Shown: one piece after another, positions 5,748 to 63,841 of the stretch
How the letters are laid out: each line of letters starts with the position of its first letter
How positions within the stretch are numbered: position 1 is the stretch's first letter
Source: Paludisphaera rhizosphaerae
GTDB taxonomy: Bacteria > Planctomycetota > Planctomycetia > Isosphaerales > Isosphaeraceae
DNA length: 64,000 bases
Assembly: GCF_011065895.1 (NCBI RefSeq)
Contig: NZ_JAALCR010000004.1
Location: forward strand, 62,001-126,000
Reading direction: 5' to 3'
The notes under the pieces: generated by a model
What the model saw: the letters and a program-made list of their open reading frames with translations, nothing else
Databases searched by the model: none
Told to the model about the DNA's origin: nothing
Translations under genes and position numbers: made by a program

Positions 5748-8594
5748 TCAGCCGGCGGGAGCGTCCGCTTTTTCGCGGAGGGCCTTGGCTTCAGGATGCT
5801 CGGGGTCGGCCTTGAGGATCTCGTCAAGGGTCGCCTTGGCGTCGTCCTTGCGGCCGGCGTCGAGCAGCGCCTGCGCCATCTTGAGCTTGATATCGACGGG
5901 CTTCTTGGGCTTGAGCGTCAGGGCGACGCGGTACTCCTCGATCGCCTCGGTGGGCTTCTTGCCCAGCGCCAGAGCGTCGCCCAGCAGGACGTGGGATGTC
6001 GGGCTGTAGACGTCGACGTAGAGGCATTCCCGCGCCCACTTCTCGGCCTCGGCCGCGTCGTCGCGGCCGAGCCATCGCTCGGCCAGGGTGTTGCGGACGG
6101 CGAGGTTGTCGGCGTCGTTGTCGGCGAGTTGGGCCAAATCGGCGAGGAAGGCCTCCACCTTCTTCTGACGGAGATGAACGCGACCCAGGTTGGCGATCCA
6201 CTTGGAGTGCTGGGGGTCGCCCTGGTGGGCCTTCTCGTAGAGCTTCTCGGCCTCGTCGAGTCGGTCCGCCTTGAGGTACAGCTCGGCCAGTTGATCCACG
6301 ACTCGCTCGTCGGGATGCTCGGGGTCGAGGGCCGGCTCCAGGATCTCCAGCGCGGCCTCGTCGTCGCCGATCGAGCCCAGCAGTCGGGCTTTCACGTAGC
6401 TGGCCAGCGGGTGGTTGGGCTTGAGCTTCAGCGCCTTCTCCGCGAGCGGCCGGGCGGCCTTGAGGTCGCGGCGGGTGAAGTGCTCGTAGGCCATCTTGGC
6501 GTTCAGGTCCGGATCGTCGGGCTTGGCCTTCAACTCGCGTTCGAGCTGCGAGAACTTCATGGGCTCGTCCGAGTCCACCCGGGCGCGGATCGTCTTGACC
6601 ACGTCGTCGAGGTGGGCGAGATAGCCCTTCTCGAAGTCGGCCTTGTCGACCTGGAAGCAATCGCGGATCGCCCCTTCCGTGGTCAGACCGCGACGGTAGG
6701 CCGTCAGCATTTTGATCTGCGCGTCCGGGCCGAACCGCTTGGCCATGTACTGGGCGTAAAGTTGGGCCTGGCAGTAGGCCATCTGGCGGTCGTCGGGCTC
6801 GTCGGGACGGATGAAGCCCAGGTTGATCGTGTCGAGGTTCAGGAGCTTTTTCCGCGAGGGGACGCGTTCCAGCAGCAGCTTGTTCCATTCCTGAGGCCGG
6901 GGGCTGGCCTCGCTCTCAACGGCGAGGGCCTCGGTGTACCAGTGGGGGATGTTGAACTCGGTTTCCTGCAGGGTCACGACGTGCGTGAACTCGTGCTTGA
7001 TAACCCGGGCCCAGTTGTAGGGCTTGTTGGTCGCCCGAGGGCTGGCCATGGCGACGATCTTCCCCGTACAGGCGCCGACGGTCGGGATGAAGGGGAGCGC
7101 CACCGTCCGGCCGCTGAACCACTGGTGGTCCTTCATGATCTCGATCTTGGTCCGGCTCGGCGGTTTGTAGCCGAACATGGCGGTCAGCTCGGGCATGACC
7201 GATTCCAGATATTCGGACATGTACTTCGCCAGCAAATCGTCCTGCCCCGGCAGGTAGGTTGTGACGAAGTGCTCGGAGTCGATCGCCTTGTAGGTGCTCA
7301 TATGCTTGAGCACGCGCATCATGTTGTCGGCCCGGACGTTGAACGGGTCGGCGGCGAAGGCCGCGTTGAAGAGCGAATTGGCCTCGTCCTCCCGGCCGAT
7401 CTGCATGTAGAGCATCCCCAGGCCGATGGGAACGTCGGCGCGGCCGGGGTCGGCCTGCGCGGCCAGAAGGAAGGCGCGTTCGGCCGTGAAATACTTGCGG
7501 CGGTCGGCCAGGCGCTCGGCCAGCCCGGCGTAGAAGTTCGCCGGGCGAGGATTGTTCGACAACGCGGTCAGCTCGGCCGCCGCCGCGCCGGCGGGGTCGA
7601 CCAGGAGTCGGCATGAGGCCGCGAGCCTCGCCAGGGCGTCCTCGTCGCGAGGGTTTGCGGCGACGGCCTTCTTGGAGGCCTCGAGCGCGTCCTGGAATCG
7701 CTCGTCGGAGATGTTCAGGTCGGCGATCAGGATGTGCGCGGGGCCGTAGTTCGGATTGACGGACAGGGCCCGCTCGGCCTTCTTCCGGCCGGCGGAGAGG
7801 CGATAGCCCTGGAGGTCGGCCTGGCCGAGCGTGACCAGGACCTCGGGGGCCAGCGGGTTGATCTGCGAGGCCCGCGTCAGCTCCTTCATGGCCTTCCCCT
7901 CGGCATAGCCCGAGAGGAACATCCGCCCTTCCAACCAGGGAGCCTTCCAGCAAGTCGGGTCGGCCTTGAGCGCGCCTTCGTAGATCTCGTTCAGGACGTC
8001 GTTGAGCGACTCCGCCAGCTCCTCGCCGCGAGCCGAGGCGCGGTAGTAGCGCTCGGCGGCCTGGCCGATGATGATAAGCGCCTCGGCGTCCTCGGCGACC
8101 TGTCGTCGATTCTCGTTGTAACGGTCGACGAACCACTTGCAGGCCTCGACGGCCTTCTCCAACTCGCCGCGGGCTTCCAGAAGTCGGGCGGCCGTCCAGC
8201 GGGCCGGCAGATCGTTGGGATCGATCGCCAGGGCTCGCTTCACGGCCTCGTCGGCGGCCTCCCAGCGACCGCGCTGGAAATGGAGTTCAGAGAGCCTGGC
8301 GGCGACCTTCGACGCTTTCGGGTCCTTGGCCTCGACGGCTTCCAGGATGGCCACGGCCGCGTCGACCTCTCCCTGCGCCGCCTTGGCGTTCGCCTGGCCG
8401 AGCGCCAGGGTGCGTTCCAAATCCGGCGTCAGGCCGTCGGGCTTCTTGCGGGCGGCCTCGACGAGTGCGTCGTAAGCCTCCTCGGCCTCCGCGTAGCGGC
8501 CGCTCGCCATGAGCCGCCGGGCCCCGTCCGAATCGACCGCGCCGCCGGCCTGAGCAACCAGCGCTGCGAGCATCATGATCGTTCCACAACCCAT
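5748..8594 (-). CDS. TPR protein with gluzincin (peptidase MA-like) metalloprotease domain
   Basis: This protein of about 948 residues begins with a short hydrophobic leader (MGCGTIMMLAALVAQAGG). ATG 8594 is chosen because AGGAGG sits about 8 nt upstream, which the ATG 27 nt earlier lacks. TPR-type helical repeats fill residues about 25-430 and again about 650-940. Between them lies a zinc-protease core: HEFTHVV at about 534-538 followed by a downstream Glu in WYTEALAV (about 555), the arrangement of gluzincins. The likely role is an exported or envelope scaffold protease; the substrate is unknown. It heads a two-gene unit with the glycoside hydrolase. A promoter on the other strand (for the cobalamin riboswitch transcript) lies about 90 bp from its start codon. 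Confidence 0.82.
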   Translation of the reverse strand: MGCGTIMMLAALVAQAGGAVDSDGARRLMASGRYAEAEEAYDALVEAARKKPDGLTPDLERTLALGQANAKAAQGEVDAAVAILEAVEAKDPKASKVAARLSELHFQRGRWEAADEAVKRALAIDPNDLPARWTAARLLEARGELEKAVEACKWFVDRYNENRRQVAEDAEALIIIGQAAERYYRASARGEELAESLNDVLNEIYEGALKADPTCWKAPWLEGRMFLSGYAEGKAMKELTRASQINPLAPEVLVTLGQADLQGYRLSAGRKKAERALSVNPNYGPAHILIADLNISDERFQDALEASKKAVAANPRDEDALARLAASCRLLVDPAGAAAAELTALSNNPRPANFYAGLAERLADRRKYFTAERAFLLAAQADPGRADVPIGLGMLYMQIGREDEANSLFNAAFAADPFNVRADNMMRVLKHMSTYKAIDSEHFVTTYLPGQDDLLAKYMSEYLESVMPELTAMFGYKPPSRTKIEIMKDHQWFSGRTVALPFIPTVGACTGKIVAMASPRATNKPYNWARVIKHEFTHVVTLQETEFNIPHWYTEALAVESEASPRPQEWNKLLLERVPSRKKLLNLDTINLGFIRPDEPDDRQMAYCQAQLYAQYMAKRFGPDAQIKMLTAYRRGLTTEGAIRDCFQVDKADFEKGYLAHLDDVVKTIRARVDSDEPMKFSQLERELKAKPDDPDLNAKMAYEHFTRRDLKAARPLAEKALKLKPNHPLASYVKARLLGSIGDDEAALEILEPALDPEHPDERVVDQLAELYLKADRLDEAEKLYEKAHQGDPQHSKWIANLGRVHLRQKKVEAFLADLAQLADNDADNLAVRNTLAERWLGRDDAAEAEKWARECLYVDVYSPTSHVLLGDALALGKKPTEAIEEYRVALTLKPKKPVDIKLKMAQALLDAGRKDDAKATLDEILKADPEHPEAKALREKADAPAG

Positions 8595-8680
8595 GGCAGC
8601 TCCCTCCTCTGAGTCGATCATTCCACGTTACCAGAAGGCTGCCGAGGATGGCAGTCGGTCGTCGATCGCGCGGCTTTCCC

Positions 8681-8710
8681 TTGCAAGGTTGGGGCGTCTC
8701 GTTGTACATT
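8681..8710 (+). promoter_or_regulatory. Candidate sigma-70-type promoter for cobalamin riboswitch transcript
   Basis: TTGCAA (8681-8686) and TACATT (8705-8710) are 18 bp apart and would start transcription near 8717, almost exactly where the riboswitch P1 stem opens (8719). The -10 match is modest, so the support is mainly positional. Confidence 0.4.
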
Positions 8711-8718
8711 CCGGCCAA

Positions 8719-8943
8719 TCCGATGGGCGTCCAGCACCAACCGCTGGACAGGAAGCCGGTGAGAATCCGGCGCGGGACCGCCGCTGTAAGCGAGAAGGTC
8801 CCCGGACGACACGGAACCCTGACGAGACGACTTCCCCATTTCGGGAATCGGCTTCGTCGGCGTTCCCAGCCACTGCGAGCCAAGGCTCGTGGGAAGGCGT
8901 TCGGGGGCCGATCGACTCGCGAGCCAGAATACGGCCCTTCGGA
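8719..8943 (+). promoter_or_regulatory. Cobalamin (B12) riboswitch, upstream of PEP-CTERM protein gene
   Basis: The core reads GGAAGCCGGTGAGAATCCGG, then a G-C rich strand and CCGCTGTAAGCG (about 8749-8792), matching the conserved GGAA..GGUG.AA.CC..GC.G..CCGC.CUGU core of the cobalamin aptamer. GCCACTG (about 8869-8875) with GGGAAGGC (8891-8898) follows, then a B12-box-like GAGCCAGAATACGGCC (about 8921-8936). A closing P1 stem pairs 8719-8728 with 8934-8943 (one mismatch in ten). All elements are in the expected order and spacing on the plus strand. The only plausible controlled gene is the surface protein at 9342. In this family adenosylcobalamin or methylcobalamin binding normally represses the downstream gene. 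Confidence 0.9.
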
Positions 8944-8952
8944 CACCCAGTT

Positions 8953-8973
8953 GATGCTTCGGCCTCAAGCATC
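8953..8973 (+). other. Perfect 7-bp hairpin just after the riboswitch (possible expression platform)
   Basis: GATGCTT (8953-8959) pairs perfectly with AAGCATC (8967-8973) around a 7-nt loop, 9 nt after the end of P1. It lacks a following U-tract, so it is not a canonical terminator. It could be part of the expression platform or a stability element. Confidence 0.45.
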
Positions 8974-9062
8974 CGGGGGAAGGCGTCCCGCCGCGCACCC
9001 TGCGCAGACCGGCCCCACGCCCTCTTCGTTCCGCGAGGCCGTCCCCGAAGGCCCCGGAATGG

Positions 9063-9210
9063 CTCGCTCAAACGTCTCCTCCTCATCGACCCGGCCGGCG
9101 CACGTCGTCCACCCGTCGATCCTCCGTGATGCCTCGGCAGGGCGTTGCGGAAGGTTGCGGCGGCGCCGTGCGCCGACCGGGTCGATGAGGTTCCGGAGCC
9201 GCTGAGCGAG
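9063..9210 (+). other. Large imperfect hairpin in the 5' leader of the PEP-CTERM gene
   Basis: CTCGCTCA (9063-9070) pairs with TGAGCGAG (9203-9210). Inside it, a 24-nt arm at 9081-9104 pairs with 9167-9190 with only one mismatch. The enclosed loop of about 62 nt is G-rich (TTGCGGAAGGTTGCGGCGG). A further hairpin pairs CCCGCC and GGCGGG ends around 9251-9282. No convincing coding frame lies here. The structure is between the cobalamin riboswitch and the regulated gene, so it is transcribed leader RNA unless a second promoter exists. Its function is unknown. Confidence 0.6.
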
Positions 9211-9341
9211 CATCACCGAACGCCTCCAGGGACGAGCGCCGAGACCTAGACCCGCCCCTCACGAATCCGTGGGGAAGGCGGGACCGGGGATCGTGCGCGC
9301 CGGCATCGTCTCAGAGCTTGATTCAACGAAAGGAACTGCTG

Positions 9342-10166
9342 ATGCGTCTCGCGACTCACCGCCTCGCCCCGGGCTTGCTCCTCACCGCCCTCCTCTCCTT
9401 CGTTCCCAACGTCCTCGCCGACTTCGACCCTCAGATCGGCCAGGCCGGCTCGCTGGGGATCGCCCAGTCCAGCAACCTGTTCAAGGCCTGGGCGACGAAC
9501 GTGGTCTCGATCGATCGGGGGCCGATGAACGCCGCGAATCCCGGGCTCGGCGACGCCAGTTCTGGCTCATTCCCGGGTCTGATTTCGCTGGGCGACGGCG
9601 GTTCGATCACCCTGAAGTTCGACAATCCGCTCTACGACGGTGCAGGGGCCGACTTCGCCGTGTTTGAGAACGGCTTCCTCTCCGGCGGGCCCGGCCTCGC
9701 CTTCCTCGAACTGGCGTTCGTGGAGGTCTCGACCGACGGCGTGAACTTCTTCAGGTTCGACGCCACGTCGCTGACCCAGACCGACACGCAGGTCGGGGGC
9801 TTCGGGCTTCTCGACGCCAGCAAGATCAACAACCTCGCCGGGAAGTACATCTCGGGTTACGGGACAGGCTTCGACCTCGCGGAGTTGGCGGGACGCTCGC
9901 CGCTGCTGGACGTCAACAACATCAACTACGTCCGGATCATCGACGTCGTCGGCTCAATCGACCCCGCCTACGGCAGCTATGACGCCTTCGGCCACCTGAT
10001 CAACGACCCGTTCACCACGCCGTTCGCGTCCTCGGGGTTCGACCTCTCCGCGGTCGGCGCAATTAACGTCGCCTCCGTCCCCGAGCCGGCGAGCCTCGCC
10101 ACGGCCGGGATCGGGGCAACGATCATGGCCGTGGCGTTGCGGTCGCGACGGCGTCGCGACGCGTGA
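9342..10166 (+). CDS. Secreted PEP-CTERM surface protein, B12-riboswitch controlled
   Basis: The ATG at 9342 follows AAGGA by about 8 nt. The 274-residue product has a signal peptide (to about residue 26), a beta-rich body and a C-terminal sorting tail: Pro-Glu-Pro near residue 247, a hydrophobic segment and an RSRRRR basic end. That tail is the PEP-CTERM signal for exosortase-dependent anchoring. The body contains GDGGSITLKFDNP and GADFAVFENGF, a pattern I recall from secreted proteins encoded near B12 transport genes in other phyla; this recollection needs a search. Because the only regulatory element upstream is a cobalamin riboswitch, a role in capturing B12 or corrinoids at the cell surface is the leading inference. 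No TonB-type receptor gene is adjacent. Confidence 0.85.
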   Translation: MRLATHRLAPGLLLTALLSFVPNVLADFDPQIGQAGSLGIAQSSNLFKAWATNVVSIDRGPMNAANPGLGDASSGSFPGLISLGDGGSITLKFDNPLYDGAGADFAVFENGFLSGGPGLAFLELAFVEVSTDGVNFFRFDATSLTQTDTQVGGFGLLDASKINNLAGKYISGYGTGFDLAELAGRSPLLDVNNINYVRIIDVVGSIDPAYGSYDAFGHLINDPFTTPFASSGFDLSAVGAINVASVPEPASLATAGIGATIMAVALRSRRRRDA

Positions 10167-10418: not shown

Positions 10419-10856
10419 TCAAACCTCGGAGGTCGCCGGTTCCTCGGCTTCTTCCAGGTCGTCGCCGTAAAACTCGAAGAAGCCCTGGCCGGCGAGCGAG
10501 TCGGCCATGGCTTTTCGGACGGTCTTGAGCTGGCCGGCGAACCGGATGTACTCGTCGACCAGGCGATTGCGGCGATCTTCGGACATCTGGAGGATGTCCG
10601 TGTAGTAGCGACGGTTCCGCCGCTTGTCGCGGAAGCTCCACAACTGCTTGATCCGCCGGCCGACGCGTTCGTCGTCGTATTCCAGGAGCCGAGCGTACTG
10701 GCGGGCCTTCATCTTCTTGGCGAAGGCGATCAGCTCAGCCTCGGATTCATACCCGCCGATCGTCTCGATCCAGTCGACGATCTGCTCGGTGACCAGGCGC
10801 GGCCCTTTTTCCTCGCAGAGTTCCTTGAGGCTGGCGACGATCTCGGCAGGTCCCAT
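10419..10856 (-). CDS. Conserved hypothetical protein, charged and helical
   Basis: The ATG at 10856 follows GGGAG by about 8 nt; an in-frame TTG five codons upstream is the alternative. The 145-residue product has no signal peptide or membrane segment. It is rich in Arg, Lys and Glu with helix-like periodicity (for example ARQYARLLEYDDERVGRRIK) and ends in an acidic tail (DDLEEAEEPATSEV). I do not recognise a family. The acidic C-terminal tail after a basic helical body would suit a nucleic-acid or ribosome-associated protein, but that is speculation. It is transcribed alone, convergent with the PEP-CTERM gene. Confidence 0.65.
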   Translation of the reverse strand: MGPAEIVASLKELCEEKGPRLVTEQIVDWIETIGGYESEAELIAFAKKMKARQYARLLEYDDERVGRRIKQLWSFRDKRRNRRYYTDILQMSEDRRNRLVDEYIRFAGQLKTVRKAMADSLAGQGFFEFYGDDLEEAEEPATSEV

Positions 10857-10898
10857 GCGCGGGTCTCCCAATCGACCGAACCGATGCGCGCGATATTC

Positions 10899-60534: not shown

Positions 60535-61536
60535 TCACTGGCTCGGCGGGGTCAGCGCCCTTTCGATCGCCTCCAGGCCTTCGACCAATCGGGGGCCGAT
60601 GCGGGTCGTCAGGTTCTCGTCGAGCGCGTGGATCCGACGGTTGCGAATGGCGGGGACGTCTTGCCAGCCGGGACGATTGGTCAGGCGCTTCTGATTCTCT
60701 TCCTCGGACCTGCCCCCGCCCCCCATGAGGCCGAACGTCGCCAGGATGACCTCCGGCGCACGGACAAGGACCTGCTCGTCGCTGGGGGTGGGGTAGTTCG
60801 AGGAAACATCGGCGAAGACGTTCACGCCCCCGGCCTCCTCGATCATCTTTCCGAGGAATGTCCCGGGGCCGACGGTCATCAGCGGATCGTCGTAGAGCAA
60901 GTAGAGCACCTTCGGACGCGCTTCTCGACGATCGGCCACGCGTTTACGGACGGCCTCCAGACGCGTTTCAAACTCGGAAGCCAAACGCTCTGCGTTCTCC
61001 CCACGATCGACGACCCGGCCGACGGCCCGAATGTTGTGCACAACGTCGGCGGGCTTCTCAGCGTCGAAGGCCACGACAGTCAGCCCAAGTTGCTGCAACG
61101 GCTCAATCACCGGCTGCTGGACGCCCGCCGTCGCCAGGACAAGGTCGGGCTTGAGCGCCGTGAGCGTCTCCAGGTTCATACTCCCCGGAGCCATACCGCC
61201 AATCGAGGTTCGCGACTTCACCTCAGGGGGGTAGTCGTCCATCATCGTCACGCCTACGACGAGGTCCCCTGCACCGACGGCGAACAGGATCTCCGTGTTC
61301 GACGGAGCCAGCGAGACCACGCGTTTCGGTGGCGCGGGAATCGTCACCTGTCGCCCTGTTGAGTCGGACACACGCTTCGGCCAGCCGTCGCCCTCGACAC
61401 GGACTGGGCTGAGTAGGCGCGGTTGCGTGGCGGCCTTGGGCTGGTTCGCAGTCGGCGCGGTCGGACCTCGGTTGCAGCCGGCGACGGCCAGTGCGACCGG
61501 CAACAGCGACCAGGCGATACGTCGATATCGATTCAT
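60535..61536 (-). CDS. btuF: Cobalamin ABC transporter substrate-binding lipoprotein (BtuF-like)
   Basis: The 333-residue protein has a lipobox VAGC (Cys about 21) and a periplasmic-binding fold of the BtuF/FhuD class: RVVSLAPSNTEILFAVGAGD, DYPPEVKSRTSIGGM, LETLTALKPDLVLA and the second-lobe KVLYLLYDDPLMTVGPGTF and EAGGVNVFAD. ATG 61536 (GTG 61539 possible) is immediately after the ATPase gene stop. Fourth gene of the B12-riboswitch operon, it delivers cobalamin or a corrinoid to the permease. The family also includes heme and siderophore binders; the riboswitch decides for B12. Confidence 0.9.
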   Translation of the reverse strand: MNRYRRIAWSLLPVALAVAGCNRGPTAPTANQPKAATQPRLLSPVRVEGDGWPKRVSDSTGRQVTIPAPPKRVVSLAPSNTEILFAVGAGDLVVGVTMMDDYPPEVKSRTSIGGMAPGSMNLETLTALKPDLVLATAGVQQPVIEPLQQLGLTVVAFDAEKPADVVHNIRAVGRVVDRGENAERLASEFETRLEAVRKRVADRREARPKVLYLLYDDPLMTVGPGTFLGKMIEEAGGVNVFADVSSNYPTPSDEQVLVRAPEVILATFGLMGGGGRSEEENQKRLTNRPGWQDVPAIRNRRIHALDENLTTRIGPRLVEGLEAIERALTPPSQ

Positions 61537-61539
61537 CAC

Positions 61540-62361
61540 TTACTTTCTCACTTCATCGCGGCGAGGTCTTGGCGCCGGGAGGATGATCGGCGAGCCGGAG
61601 ACGGGATGACGGTCGACGAGGACCGGGCAGCGGTAGGCGCGAGCGAGGATCTCGGGCGTCAGAACGACCTCGGGCTCGCCGACGGCCATTACGCCCCCTT
61701 CGGAGAGCAGGGCGATCCGGTCGGCCCAGGTCGACGCCTGGTTCAGATCGTGAAGGCTCACGACGACGGCCAACCCCTCCTCTCGCGCCAGGCGGTCGAC
61801 CATGTCGAGGATCTCGAACTGATAGTGCCAATCCAGATGCGCCGTGGGTTCGTCGAGCAACAGGACGCGCGGCTCCTGCGCCAGCGACTGGGCGAGCGCG
61901 ACCCGCTGCCATTCGCCGGCGGAGAGGGCGTCGACGGTTCGGTCGCGCATGCCTGAGAGCCGGGTGCGATCGAGGACTCGGTCGACGACGGCCTCATCCT
62001 CGGTGGTCATGGGAAGCCACCACCCTCGATGCGCAGCGCGGCCGAGCCGGACGACCTCATCGATGGTCAACCGCGATCCCTGGGGATCGTCCTGAAGGGC
62101 GATCGCAACGCGGCGATGCGCCCAGGCGCGACCGCGCTTCCAGGCGTCCTCGCCATCGACGAGAACCTTCCCACCTCGGGGCGGCAAGATCCTGGCGATC
62201 GTTCGCAGCAAGGTCGTCTTGCCCGATCCGTTCGGCCCCAGGAGCGCCAGGACCGTGCCCGATTCAACGGTCAGGTCGACCCCCGTCAGAACGTCGGGCA
62301 ACCCCCGTCCGTATCCGCAGGAAAGTCCTTCGACTCGGAGACGAGGTGCGGCGGCGGTCAT
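61540..62361 (-). CDS. btuD: Cobalamin ABC transporter ATP-binding protein (BtuD-like)
   Basis: The 273-residue protein has Walker A GPNGSGKTT (42-50), Q-loop ALQDDP (about 88-93), signature LSAGEWQRV (146-154), Walker B VLLLDEP (166-172) and the switch His in VVVSLHDLN. The sequence follows the FepC/BtuD/FhuC class. ATG 62361 overlaps the permease stop (ATGA), so translation is coupled. It powers import by the BtuC-type permease. Confidence 0.93.
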   Translation of the reverse strand: MTAAAPRLRVEGLSCGYGRGLPDVLTGVDLTVESGTVLALLGPNGSGKTTLLRTIARILPPRGGKVLVDGEDAWKRGRAWAHRRVAIALQDDPQGSRLTIDEVVRLGRAAHRGWWLPMTTEDEAVVDRVLDRTRLSGMRDRTVDALSAGEWQRVALAQSLAQEPRVLLLDEPTAHLDWHYQFEILDMVDRLAREEGLAVVVSLHDLNQASTWADRIALLSEGGVMAVGEPEVVLTPEILARAYRCPVLVDRHPVSGSPIILPAPRPRRDEVRK

Positions 62362-63353
62362 CGCAGCGACCTCCGCAGGACGACGAGGAAGAAGGGACCG
62401 CCGAGAATCGCCGTCAGAACGCCCACAGGAAGTTCGATGGGCGCGGCGACGGTCCGCGCCAGGTCGTCGGCCAGGATGAGAAGGATGGCGCCCGCGAGTC
62501 CGGAAGCTGGAATCAAGTAGCGGTGCCTGGCCCCAACAAGGGCTCTCGCCAGATGAGGAGCGATCAGACCGACGAAGCCGATTACCCCCGCGACGGCCAC
62601 AGCGGCGGCTGTCGCCAGGCTGGCCGCCGCCACGATCAGGCCACTGATCGACTTCAGCGGCAACCCGAGGGCCTGCGCCGGCTGCTCGCCCAGCGAGAGC
62701 GCGTCCAGAGGTCGGGCCAACGCGCAAAGTCCCAGGAAACCGACCGCGATGTAAGGGCCGCCGCCAAGCACCGCCGACCATCCTCGGCCTGCCAGACTCC
62801 CCATCATCCAGAGGACGATCCGCGCCAGATCCTCATCATGGAGCACCATCAACAACCAGACGACAGCCCCCAGGAAGCTGCTCACGGCAGAACCCGCCAG
62901 CAGCAGTGAGACGATCGGCGCAGGCCCCCACCAGGTCGTCGTCAGGTAGACGAGGCATGCCGCCGCCATCGCCCCCAGAAACCCGCCGAGGGGAATGGCT
63001 CCGAAGCCCAGGGCCCCCGCCCCTCCCGCCACCATCACGAGCGTCGCCCCTAGCGCCGAGCCGGCTGAAGCCCCGATGACGTAAGGATCCGCCAGCGGGT
63101 TTCGGAAGAGCCCCTGATAGGCCGCTCCCGCCGCTCCCAACGCCAGCCCGACGAGACTCCCCAACAGAATCCGCGGCAGCCGAAGCTCGCGAACGATCGT
63201 CGCCGTCTGCATCGAGTCTGAAGACGTTCGCCCCAGCAGAGCGTCGAAGATCTCCCCGGGCGAGAGCCAAACGGAACCCACTCCCAGGCTCAAGAGTCCC
63301 ACGGCGACGAGCAACGTCAGCAGGCCCATGAGTCGGCCGGTGCGCGACTTCAC
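62358..63353 (-). CDS. btuC: Cobalamin ABC transporter permease (BtuC-like, FecCD family)
   Basis: The product of 331 residues has about ten transmembrane helices and FecCD-family landmarks: RLPRILLGSLVGLALGAAGA, QGLFRNPLADPYVIGASAGS, RHRYLIPASGLAGAILLILAD and GVLTAILGGPFFLVVLRR. I chose GTG 63353, which overlaps the DUF1289 stop (GTGA) with GAGGG 9 nt upstream; ATG 63371 is possible but has a poorer ribosome-binding site. It forms the channel for B12 with BtuD. Confidence 0.92.
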   Translation of the reverse strand: MKSRTGRLMGLLTLLVAVGLLSLGVGSVWLSPGEIFDALLGRTSSDSMQTATIVRELRLPRILLGSLVGLALGAAGAAYQGLFRNPLADPYVIGASAGSALGATLVMVAGGAGALGFGAIPLGGFLGAMAAACLVYLTTTWWGPAPIVSLLLAGSAVSSFLGAVVWLLMVLHDEDLARIVLWMMGSLAGRGWSAVLGGGPYIAVGFLGLCALARPLDALSLGEQPAQALGLPLKSISGLIVAAASLATAAAVAVAGVIGFVGLIAPHLARALVGARHRYLIPASGLAGAILLILADDLARTVAAPIELPVGVLTAILGGPFFLVVLRRSLR

Positions 63354-63562
63354 GGCGCATCGCCCTCGCATGAAGCCACGTTCGCCCGAACCGGCGTCAG
63401 CCCAAGCCGAATCCTTCGTTCGGGGAGTTCAGCCATGACGCGATCCCGGTAATCAGCCGTGGACCGACCCCAGGCGGCGATCTCGGCCCTCGAACGGGCG
63501 CAACCAACGCAATAGATGGACGAGGGGTCCAATCGGCAAACGCCGATGCAGGGAGAGACCAA
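63350..63562 (-). CDS. DUF1289 Cys-rich small protein, first gene of B12 operon
   Basis: From TTG 63562 (AAAGG 6 nt upstream) a 70-residue protein begins VSPCIGVCRLDPSSIYCVGC, the DUF1289 motif, with four cysteines (C5, C9, C18, C21) that could hold an Fe-S or zinc site, followed by SRAEIAAW. The open frame continues upstream through the riboswitch aptamer, but a start there would overlap the RNA structure and give an atypical N terminus. It overlaps btuC by 4 bp. Its position directly behind the riboswitch implies a B12-related role not previously assigned, to my knowledge. Confidence 0.75.
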   Translation of the reverse strand: MVSPCIGVCRLDPSSIYCVGCARSRAEIAAWGRSTADYRDRVMAELPERRIRLGLTPVRANVASCEGDAP

Positions 63563-63640
63563 GGGAGACCTTTCCGCCGGGCCGGGCGACTGGTGGGATG
63601 GCGGCCGATCGCCACGCGATGAGGCCGTTTCAGATCGATC

Positions 63641-63830
63641 CCCCGACGGGCAGGTCTTCTGGCTCTCGGCTCCTGGCGGTCCCGGACGACCTTCCCGCCG
63701 CAACCTTCGCGGCAGTGGTCTTTCGTCCGTTCCCTGGCCGATCACAGCGGCGGCCCCGCGCCGGAATTTCACCGGCTTCCCTATTCTCCCCCGAAGCCTG
63801 ACGTATCAGACCTCACGGGCACCCGTCGGG
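63641..63830 (-). promoter_or_regulatory. Cobalamin (B12) riboswitch of the DUF1289-btuCDF operon
   Basis: On the minus strand the aptamer reads, from 63830 down: CCCGACGGGTGCCCGTGAGG, then AGGGAAGCCGGTGAAATTCC, GCCGCCGCTGTGATCGG, GACCACTGCCGCGAAGG with CGGGAAGG, and the B12 box AGCCAGAAGACCTGCC. P1 pairs CCCGACGGG at 63822-63830 with CCCGTCGGG ending at 63641. Every conserved block of the cobalamin class is present in order. Aptamer end to DUF1289 start is about 80 nt. Cobalamin binding is expected to shut off the operon. Confidence 0.95.
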
Positions 63831-63841
63831 AGCGCGATCCT

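Follow-up and report, generated by a model that had tools for sequence, protein, structure and literature searches.

A PEP-CTERM protein gene behind a cobalamin riboswitch in Paludisphaera rhizosphaerae, and its probable place as a remote relative of the B12-binding protein BtuH

Why should a cobalamin riboswitch stand before a single gene for a surface protein? The question arises from a 64,000-nucleotide stretch of the Paludisphaera rhizosphaerae genome (referred to here as the window), in which a gene for a secreted PEP-CTERM protein lies downstream of a putative aptamer, and for which the original prediction had proposed a corrinoid-capture protein. We examined the riboswitch and the gene, the relatives of the gene product and their surroundings in other genomes, the predicted fold, and the other B12-related genes of the same genome.

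The riboswitch, its leader and the downstream gene

The Rfam cobalamin riboswitch model RF00174 matches the window at 8708–8953 (+) over its full length (model positions 1–189) with 58.3 bits and an E value of 7.1e-12, above the gathering score of 31.5 bits, and the complete aptamer read from the letters at 8719–8943 thus passes the covariance search proposed for it. In the alignment the P5/P6 part contains a long insertion, and several pairs of the closing helix are non-standard. Of the five RF00174 copies in the genome this one scores lowest, the other four reaching 91.3 to 107.9 bits.

Aptamer and start codon are separated by a long leader of 388 nt (8954–9341, +), and the original view of an aptamer near the start codon is not borne out. 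The leader contains a strong 150-nt hairpin at 9059–9208 (+; dG −100.2, z −8.6), which we considered as a possible repeat element and rejected as such because a search for a second genomic copy found none, the sole match elsewhere being 36 bases at 87% identity. Inverted repeats of at least 14 nt are absent from the leaders of loci L035, L115 and L116, and the leader of locus L036 has one of 23 nt. Scans of 8560–9400 gave no intrinsic terminator, no recognisable expression platform and no sigma-70-type promoter (the promoter scan covers this type only), and the promoter candidate placed just upstream of the aptamer was not recovered. The low score, together with the long leader, its large hairpin and the lack of a recognisable platform, would also suit a riboswitch that is decayed or read through, with transcription of the gene starting in the leader regardless of B12; evidence that bears on this comes from other genomes, as described below.

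The open reading frame at 9342–10166 (+) encodes 274 amino acids, and an AAAGGA motif is visible by eye before its ATG. The long frames to either side in the ORF list, 5748–8621 and 10419–10871, are both on the minus strand, so the riboswitch points at 9342–10166 alone, in agreement with the earlier reading that it is directed at one secreted PEP-CTERM protein only. Judged by eye, residues 1–26 (9342–9419, +) are a probable signal peptide, with no cysteine near the N-terminus. Residues 245–270 (10074–10151, +) match the PEP-CTERM sorting model PF07589 at 23.3 bits, over the cut-off of 20.7, and the NCBIfam PEP-CTERM model TIGR02595 scores 12.1, under its cut-off of 16. With three exosortase (PF09721) matches elsewhere in the genome, the protein has both a sorting motif over cut-off and an exosortase encoded alongside it; where BtuH is a surface lipoprotein, the window protein has a PEP-CTERM tail instead. 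Searches of Pfam and NCBIfam, and of the PDB with the single sequence, returned the PEP-CTERM tail and otherwise weak matches only, one of which (DHQ_synthase, E 0.028) we rejected as chance. Neither PF14717 (DUF4465) nor PF16819 (DUF5074) was among the matches of the window protein at E ≤10, a setting at which the HMMER filters still drop most matches above about 0.1.

Relatives of the window protein and their gene neighbourhoods

One scan found at least 551 relatives, and the best 80 of these were kept as named loci; they are mostly from Bacteroidota, with others from Verrucomicrobiota and Planctomycetota and one from a Chthonomonas metagenome-assembled genome (MAG). Among the matches listed the closest is locus L035 from Paludisphaera soli (Isosphaeraceae), whose best segment is 71% identical. 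In the 21 family members searched, the shared domain is covered by no Pfam-A model.

To these loci we applied R1, a covariance model of our own built from 14 RF00174 matches, none of them from the 80 named loci. R1 finds a riboswitch in 69 of the 80, with 71 matches in total, all on the strand of the family gene and all upstream of it except the second match in L037, which lies behind the gene. A search with RF00174 itself covered 31 of the 80 loci and was positive in 18; ten of the 13 without a match to it also lack one to R1. This search adds L059, and the number of named loci with a riboswitch thus becomes 70 of 80, including three that score weakly (L038, L040 and L047, with R1 E values of 7e-5, 7e-7 and 4e-4 that RF00174 does not confirm). 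Three of the ten loci that gave no riboswitch match have 8.0 kb (L085), 5.9 kb (L103) and 4.2 kb (L104) of upstream DNA, and the remaining seven have 0.4 to 2.5 kb. In 11 control loci outside the family R1 has no match at E ≤1. In the window, L031 and L167, R1 gave matches below 10 bits, which we took as chance.

A sample of the phylum gave a similar association. Matches occur in 24 of 294 planctomycete genomes, and omission of the source genome and of G291, which matches in the tail only, leaves 22 loci. RF00174 scores above gathering, upstream and on the same strand, in 19 of these (ten and then nine more, eight of the nine seen once the stretches were lengthened), and in the three without it (L017, L024 and L029) the contig extends no more than 167 bases ahead of the match. 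In L022 two tandem cobalamin riboswitches, at 1189–1395 and 1570–1779 (−), precede one family gene. The association of homologues with B12 loci, put forward as a check on the original prediction, thus holds in both samples, and the recurrent pairing of riboswitch and gene, seen also in P. soli (L035), argues for retained control and against decay or read-through of the window riboswitch. We regard B12-independent expression from the leader as very improbable.

The neighbours of the family genes also include B12 uptake genes. A TonB receptor cluster is found in 43 of the 80 named loci and a DUF5074 (BtuG family) cluster in 44, each cluster being assigned from one scanned representative; TonB receptors, DUF5074 proteins and BtuF-like proteins are seen as neighbours in the Bacteroidota loci. 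There is a BtuF-like gene in L048 and a DUF4430 gene in L042. DUF4465 adjoins the family gene or shares its frame in L013, L037, L038, L040 and L159, the L013 assignment being that of one reported member identified by length and sequence. The description of the window gene as an orphan is therefore correct at its own locus, where it stands alone, but not elsewhere, where the family is often beside other B12 uptake genes.

Several further neighbours were noted. Genes for DUF1559 or N_methyl prepilin motif proteins occur in L012, L038, L040, L109 and L159, and in L012 the DUF1559 prepilin-like gene (200–1341) is between the riboswitch and the family gene. In L161 to L164 the same position is occupied by a gene whose product, about 450 residues long, is conserved and apparently secreted (alignment A7); Pfam gave no domain over cut-off for it, and a search of the PDB gave no convincing relative. 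Diphthamide-synthase-like (PF01902) genes are near the family gene in L045 (6094–7083) and L054 (1079–1771).

Likeness to BtuH in predicted fold and in sequence

An AlphaFold model computed from the window protein and 49 relatives drawn from the 80 named loci has a pLDDT of 95.5 and a pTM of 0.92. In a Foldseek search of the PDB with this model the top match is 8blw_B (E 3.7e-4), and the matched part is identified in the relevant passage of PMC10404256 as the H-domain of BtuG1 (BtuGH BT_1490). With VIA-align, model residues 23–217, corresponding to residues 48–242 of the protein (9483–10067, +), superpose on 8blw_B 393–660 with Z 11.9 (163 residues, rmsd 3.5) and on 7biz_A 318–592 with Z 11.8 (154 residues, rmsd 3.3); the next PDB entry has Z 7.4. 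The BtuH-like domain is thus predicted to have the same fold as 7BIZ and the H-domain of 8BLW. A BtuH profile finds only these two, BtuG1 H-domain (8blw) and BtuH2 (7biz), among PDB sequences at E ≤0.01, and direct profile searches of the PDB with the family gave 8blw_B again, weakly (E 0.069 and 0.035).

For sequence comparison we collected BtuH homologues, which are present in 61 of 295 genomes; we retrieved 30 of these loci and aligned 22, the eight left out mostly having extra C-terminal sequence. In hhalign the phylum-sample alignment (A2) matches BtuH with probability 91.9 and E 6.8e-7 over 91 columns, and the alignment of named relatives (A5) does so with probability 83.7 and E 8.1e-6 over 42 columns, the similarity being in the first half of the domain only. 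Searches in both directions agree with this: a BtuH HMM run against 3363 frames from the 80 family loci gave 12 matches, all of them family genes (best E 2.7e-4), and a family HMM from alignment A1 run against 332 frames from the 30 BtuH loci gave 25 matches, all of them BtuH (best E 5.5e-8). A search with a BtuH fragment in 42 genomes of named Bacteroidota loci gave no matches and, having no positive control, is uninformative. The original prediction had likened the protein to BtuG/BtuH in concept, its sequence being different. Its likeness to BtuH stands, and the relation is better described as remote homology of the family to the BtuH domain, supported by fold, hhalign and reciprocal HMM searches, than as one of concept alone.

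One residue of the vitamin-binding site can be followed across this distance. The Asn of a family E-N-x-F motif, Asn110 in the window protein (codon 9669–9671, +), aligns in hhalign with the Asn of a BtuH G-N-A-F motif, which by counting is Asn399 of BtuH2; Asn399 contacts the B12 phosphate (PMC8941943). The position is invariant in four alignments: every row has Asn in A5 (50 rows), in A1 (21) and among the BtuH sequences of A6 (22). The equivalent of Phe401, two residues further on, is Phe in 40 of the 50 A5 rows. The BtuH2 contact Gln333 is opposite a gap for the window protein, and the contacts His476, Tyr510, Trp511 and Trp577 (PMC8941943) are beyond the aligned part.

That most BtuH contact residues are untraceable in the family would fit a protein that assists B12 uptake without binding the vitamin, such as a scaffold, a channel-opening partner or, like BtuL, a vesicle factor. 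There is precedent in BtuL and in BtuK2, which occur in B12 loci yet showed no B12 binding, BtuK2 even though it is similar to the binder BtuK1 (PMC12751083). The BtuH fold speaks against such a role, as do the Asn and Phe at the nucleotide-loop site, the first invariant and the second mostly conserved, and a gene that stands alone behind its riboswitch; we consider a purely accessory function decidedly unlikely. PEP-CTERM proteins are often tied to the extracellular matrix, a point in favour of another alternative, an adhesin or matrix protein of the surface that is regulated by B12 but binds no cobamide, B12 starvation merely altering the cell surface. Of 21 family members, 20 match the NF033170 model of the LIC_13355 lipoproteins at E ≤0.1 (best 4.5e-18), and LIC_13355 is reported in a passage of PMC11891782 to bind laminin and plasminogen. 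Against this, it is BtuH for which the fold match stands out, and the family recurs among BtuG-like, BtuF-like, TonB-receptor and DUF4465 genes; an adhesin or matrix protein therefore seems unlikely.

Putative cobamide acquisition in the source genome and comparison with known systems

The assembly (8.05 Mb in 110 contigs) has five RF00174 matches, which precede the window gene, two DUF4465 genes, a DUF1559 prepilin-like gene and a set of btuCDF-like genes. The last of these sets is also in the window, behind a second cobalamin riboswitch at 63632–63841 (−; 98.6 bits) that the original prediction did not include. It comprises genes for a BtuC-like permease of the FecCD type (62358–63371, −; PF01032, E 1.6e-92), a BtuD-like ABC_tran ATPase whose start codon is uncertain (61540–62781, −; PF00005, E 4.5e-33, frame residues 165–314) and a BtuF-like binding protein (60535–61539, −; PF01497, E 1.1e-34). 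Between the riboswitch and these genes is a DUF1289 frame that, as listed, overlaps the riboswitch, and its true start is probably further downstream. The DUF4465 genes are on contigs C3 and C21 and are the only two PF14717 matches in the genome; the PEP-CTERM tail of the C21 protein is over cut-off (26.4 bits) and that of the C3 protein just under it (19.6 against 20.7). On contig C6 a cobalamin riboswitch directly precedes the DUF1559 prepilin-like gene (locus L117, 3918–5160). There is one match to cobalamin-dependent MetH, through its B12-activation domain. GATase_3 (CobB/CobQ), tried as a marker of B12 synthesis, matches the genome but also all 14 control genomes, and was set aside as non-discriminating.

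The TonB-dependent receptor barrel PF00593 has no match in the whole genome, although Escherichia coli, Caulobacter and Bacteroides controls were positive. It is likewise without a match in P. soli, an Isosphaeraceae MAG, Aquisphaera insulae and Botrimarina hoheduenensis, the genomes behind named loci L035, L036, L037 and L109. The absence is not general. Besides P. rhizosphaerae, 26 genomes with a family member were searched, these four included; the barrel is present in 14 and missing from 12, and seven of the ten of good quality have it. The locus raises the question of how the vitamin, once caught at the surface, would cross the outer membrane of cells in which no TonB-type receptor was detected. 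A tentative answer, possible but in our view somewhat doubtful, is that Isosphaeraceae scavenge cobamides without a TonB receptor by means of riboswitch-controlled binders (the BtuH-like PEP-CTERM protein and the two DUF4465 proteins) and a DUF1559 prepilin-like protein, using an undescribed route through the outer layer and then BtuCDF.

We consider it very likely that 9342–10166 (+) encodes an exported, PEP-CTERM-anchored, cobamide-binding protein, a remote BtuH branch under B12-riboswitch control that feeds the btuCDF-like importer; the reading frame, the PF07589 tail, the association of the family with riboswitches and the predicted fold all point this way. Judging by the usual behaviour of the class, the riboswitch at 8708–8953 would permit expression when cellular cobamide is low and shut the gene off when it is plentiful. 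The protein would then be exported, its tail processed by exosortase, and displayed on the cell surface, where its BtuH-like cleft may capture cobamides and hand them to the importer, whose genes lie about 50 kb away behind the second riboswitch. Against this we count the restriction of the BtuH similarity to the first half of the domain, the shorter domain, the BtuH2 contacts that fall in a gap or beyond the aligned part, the precedent of BtuK2, the laminin and plasminogen binding reported for LIC_13355, the weakest aptamer of the five, the ten of 80 loci without a detected riboswitch and the three with only weak R1 matches. The originally proposed corrinoid-capture role is supported by the ties of the family to B12 riboswitches and by its BtuH-like predicted fold, and the window protein is probably a B12 scavenger, the binding itself being a putative property. 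This would give a likely function to a family of at least 551 relatives.

A literature search, which lay mostly outside subscription papers, returned no description of the family in the parts of the sources covered. "Cobalamin riboswitch" and "PEP-CTERM" occurred together only in PMC12530212, where the passages concerned treat two separate loci; no paper was found with "DUF1559" and "riboswitch" together; and the passages retrieved from PMC2667541 and PMC1796856 are not about this family.

Among known systems, the DUF4465 (PF14717) proteins, including BtuJ, are exported B12 binders, and BtuJ genes are in riboswitch-regulated loci. DUF4465 proteins are described as binding B12 in passages of PMC13398666, which also report that such a protein from the planctomycete Mucisphaera calidilacus stayed pink with B12 on a nickel column. 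They form a family separate from that of the window protein, to which they are a neighbour in several loci. BtuG (DUF5074), a frequent neighbour in the Bacteroidota loci, is a beta-propeller according to a passage of PMC8941943. The LIC_13355 lipoproteins (NF033170) of Leptospira are sequence relatives, the window protein scoring 22.1 bits, far under the cut-off of 120; they have been studied as binders of host proteins, unlike the B12-linked family, and the words "B12", "cobalamin" and "riboswitch" are absent from the text of PMC11891782. On this sequence relationship, members of the LIC_13355 family may bind cobamides, a property that seems worth considering for these lipoproteins.

The closest comparison is with BtuH itself (BtuH2 BT_1956, 7BIZ, and the BtuG1 H-domain, 8BLW). 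In both cases the proteins are exported and their genes are in B12-riboswitch loci. The domain of the present family is about 70 residues shorter, with 17% identity in the structural alignment, and the residues that contact the corrin ring in BtuH cannot be traced in it; moreover, the window protein has a PEP-CTERM tail where BtuH has a lipid anchor, and its gene is a lone one in a genome with no TonB receptor barrel match. We do not count the window protein as BtuH proper, since the lipid anchor is absent and most contact residues could not be traced; it is best described as a remote, PEP-CTERM-anchored, apparently new branch of the BtuH type. As such it would carry BtuH-type B12 capture beyond the gut Bacteroidetes, where it has mainly been described, into environmental Bacteroidota, verrucomicrobia and planctomycetes.
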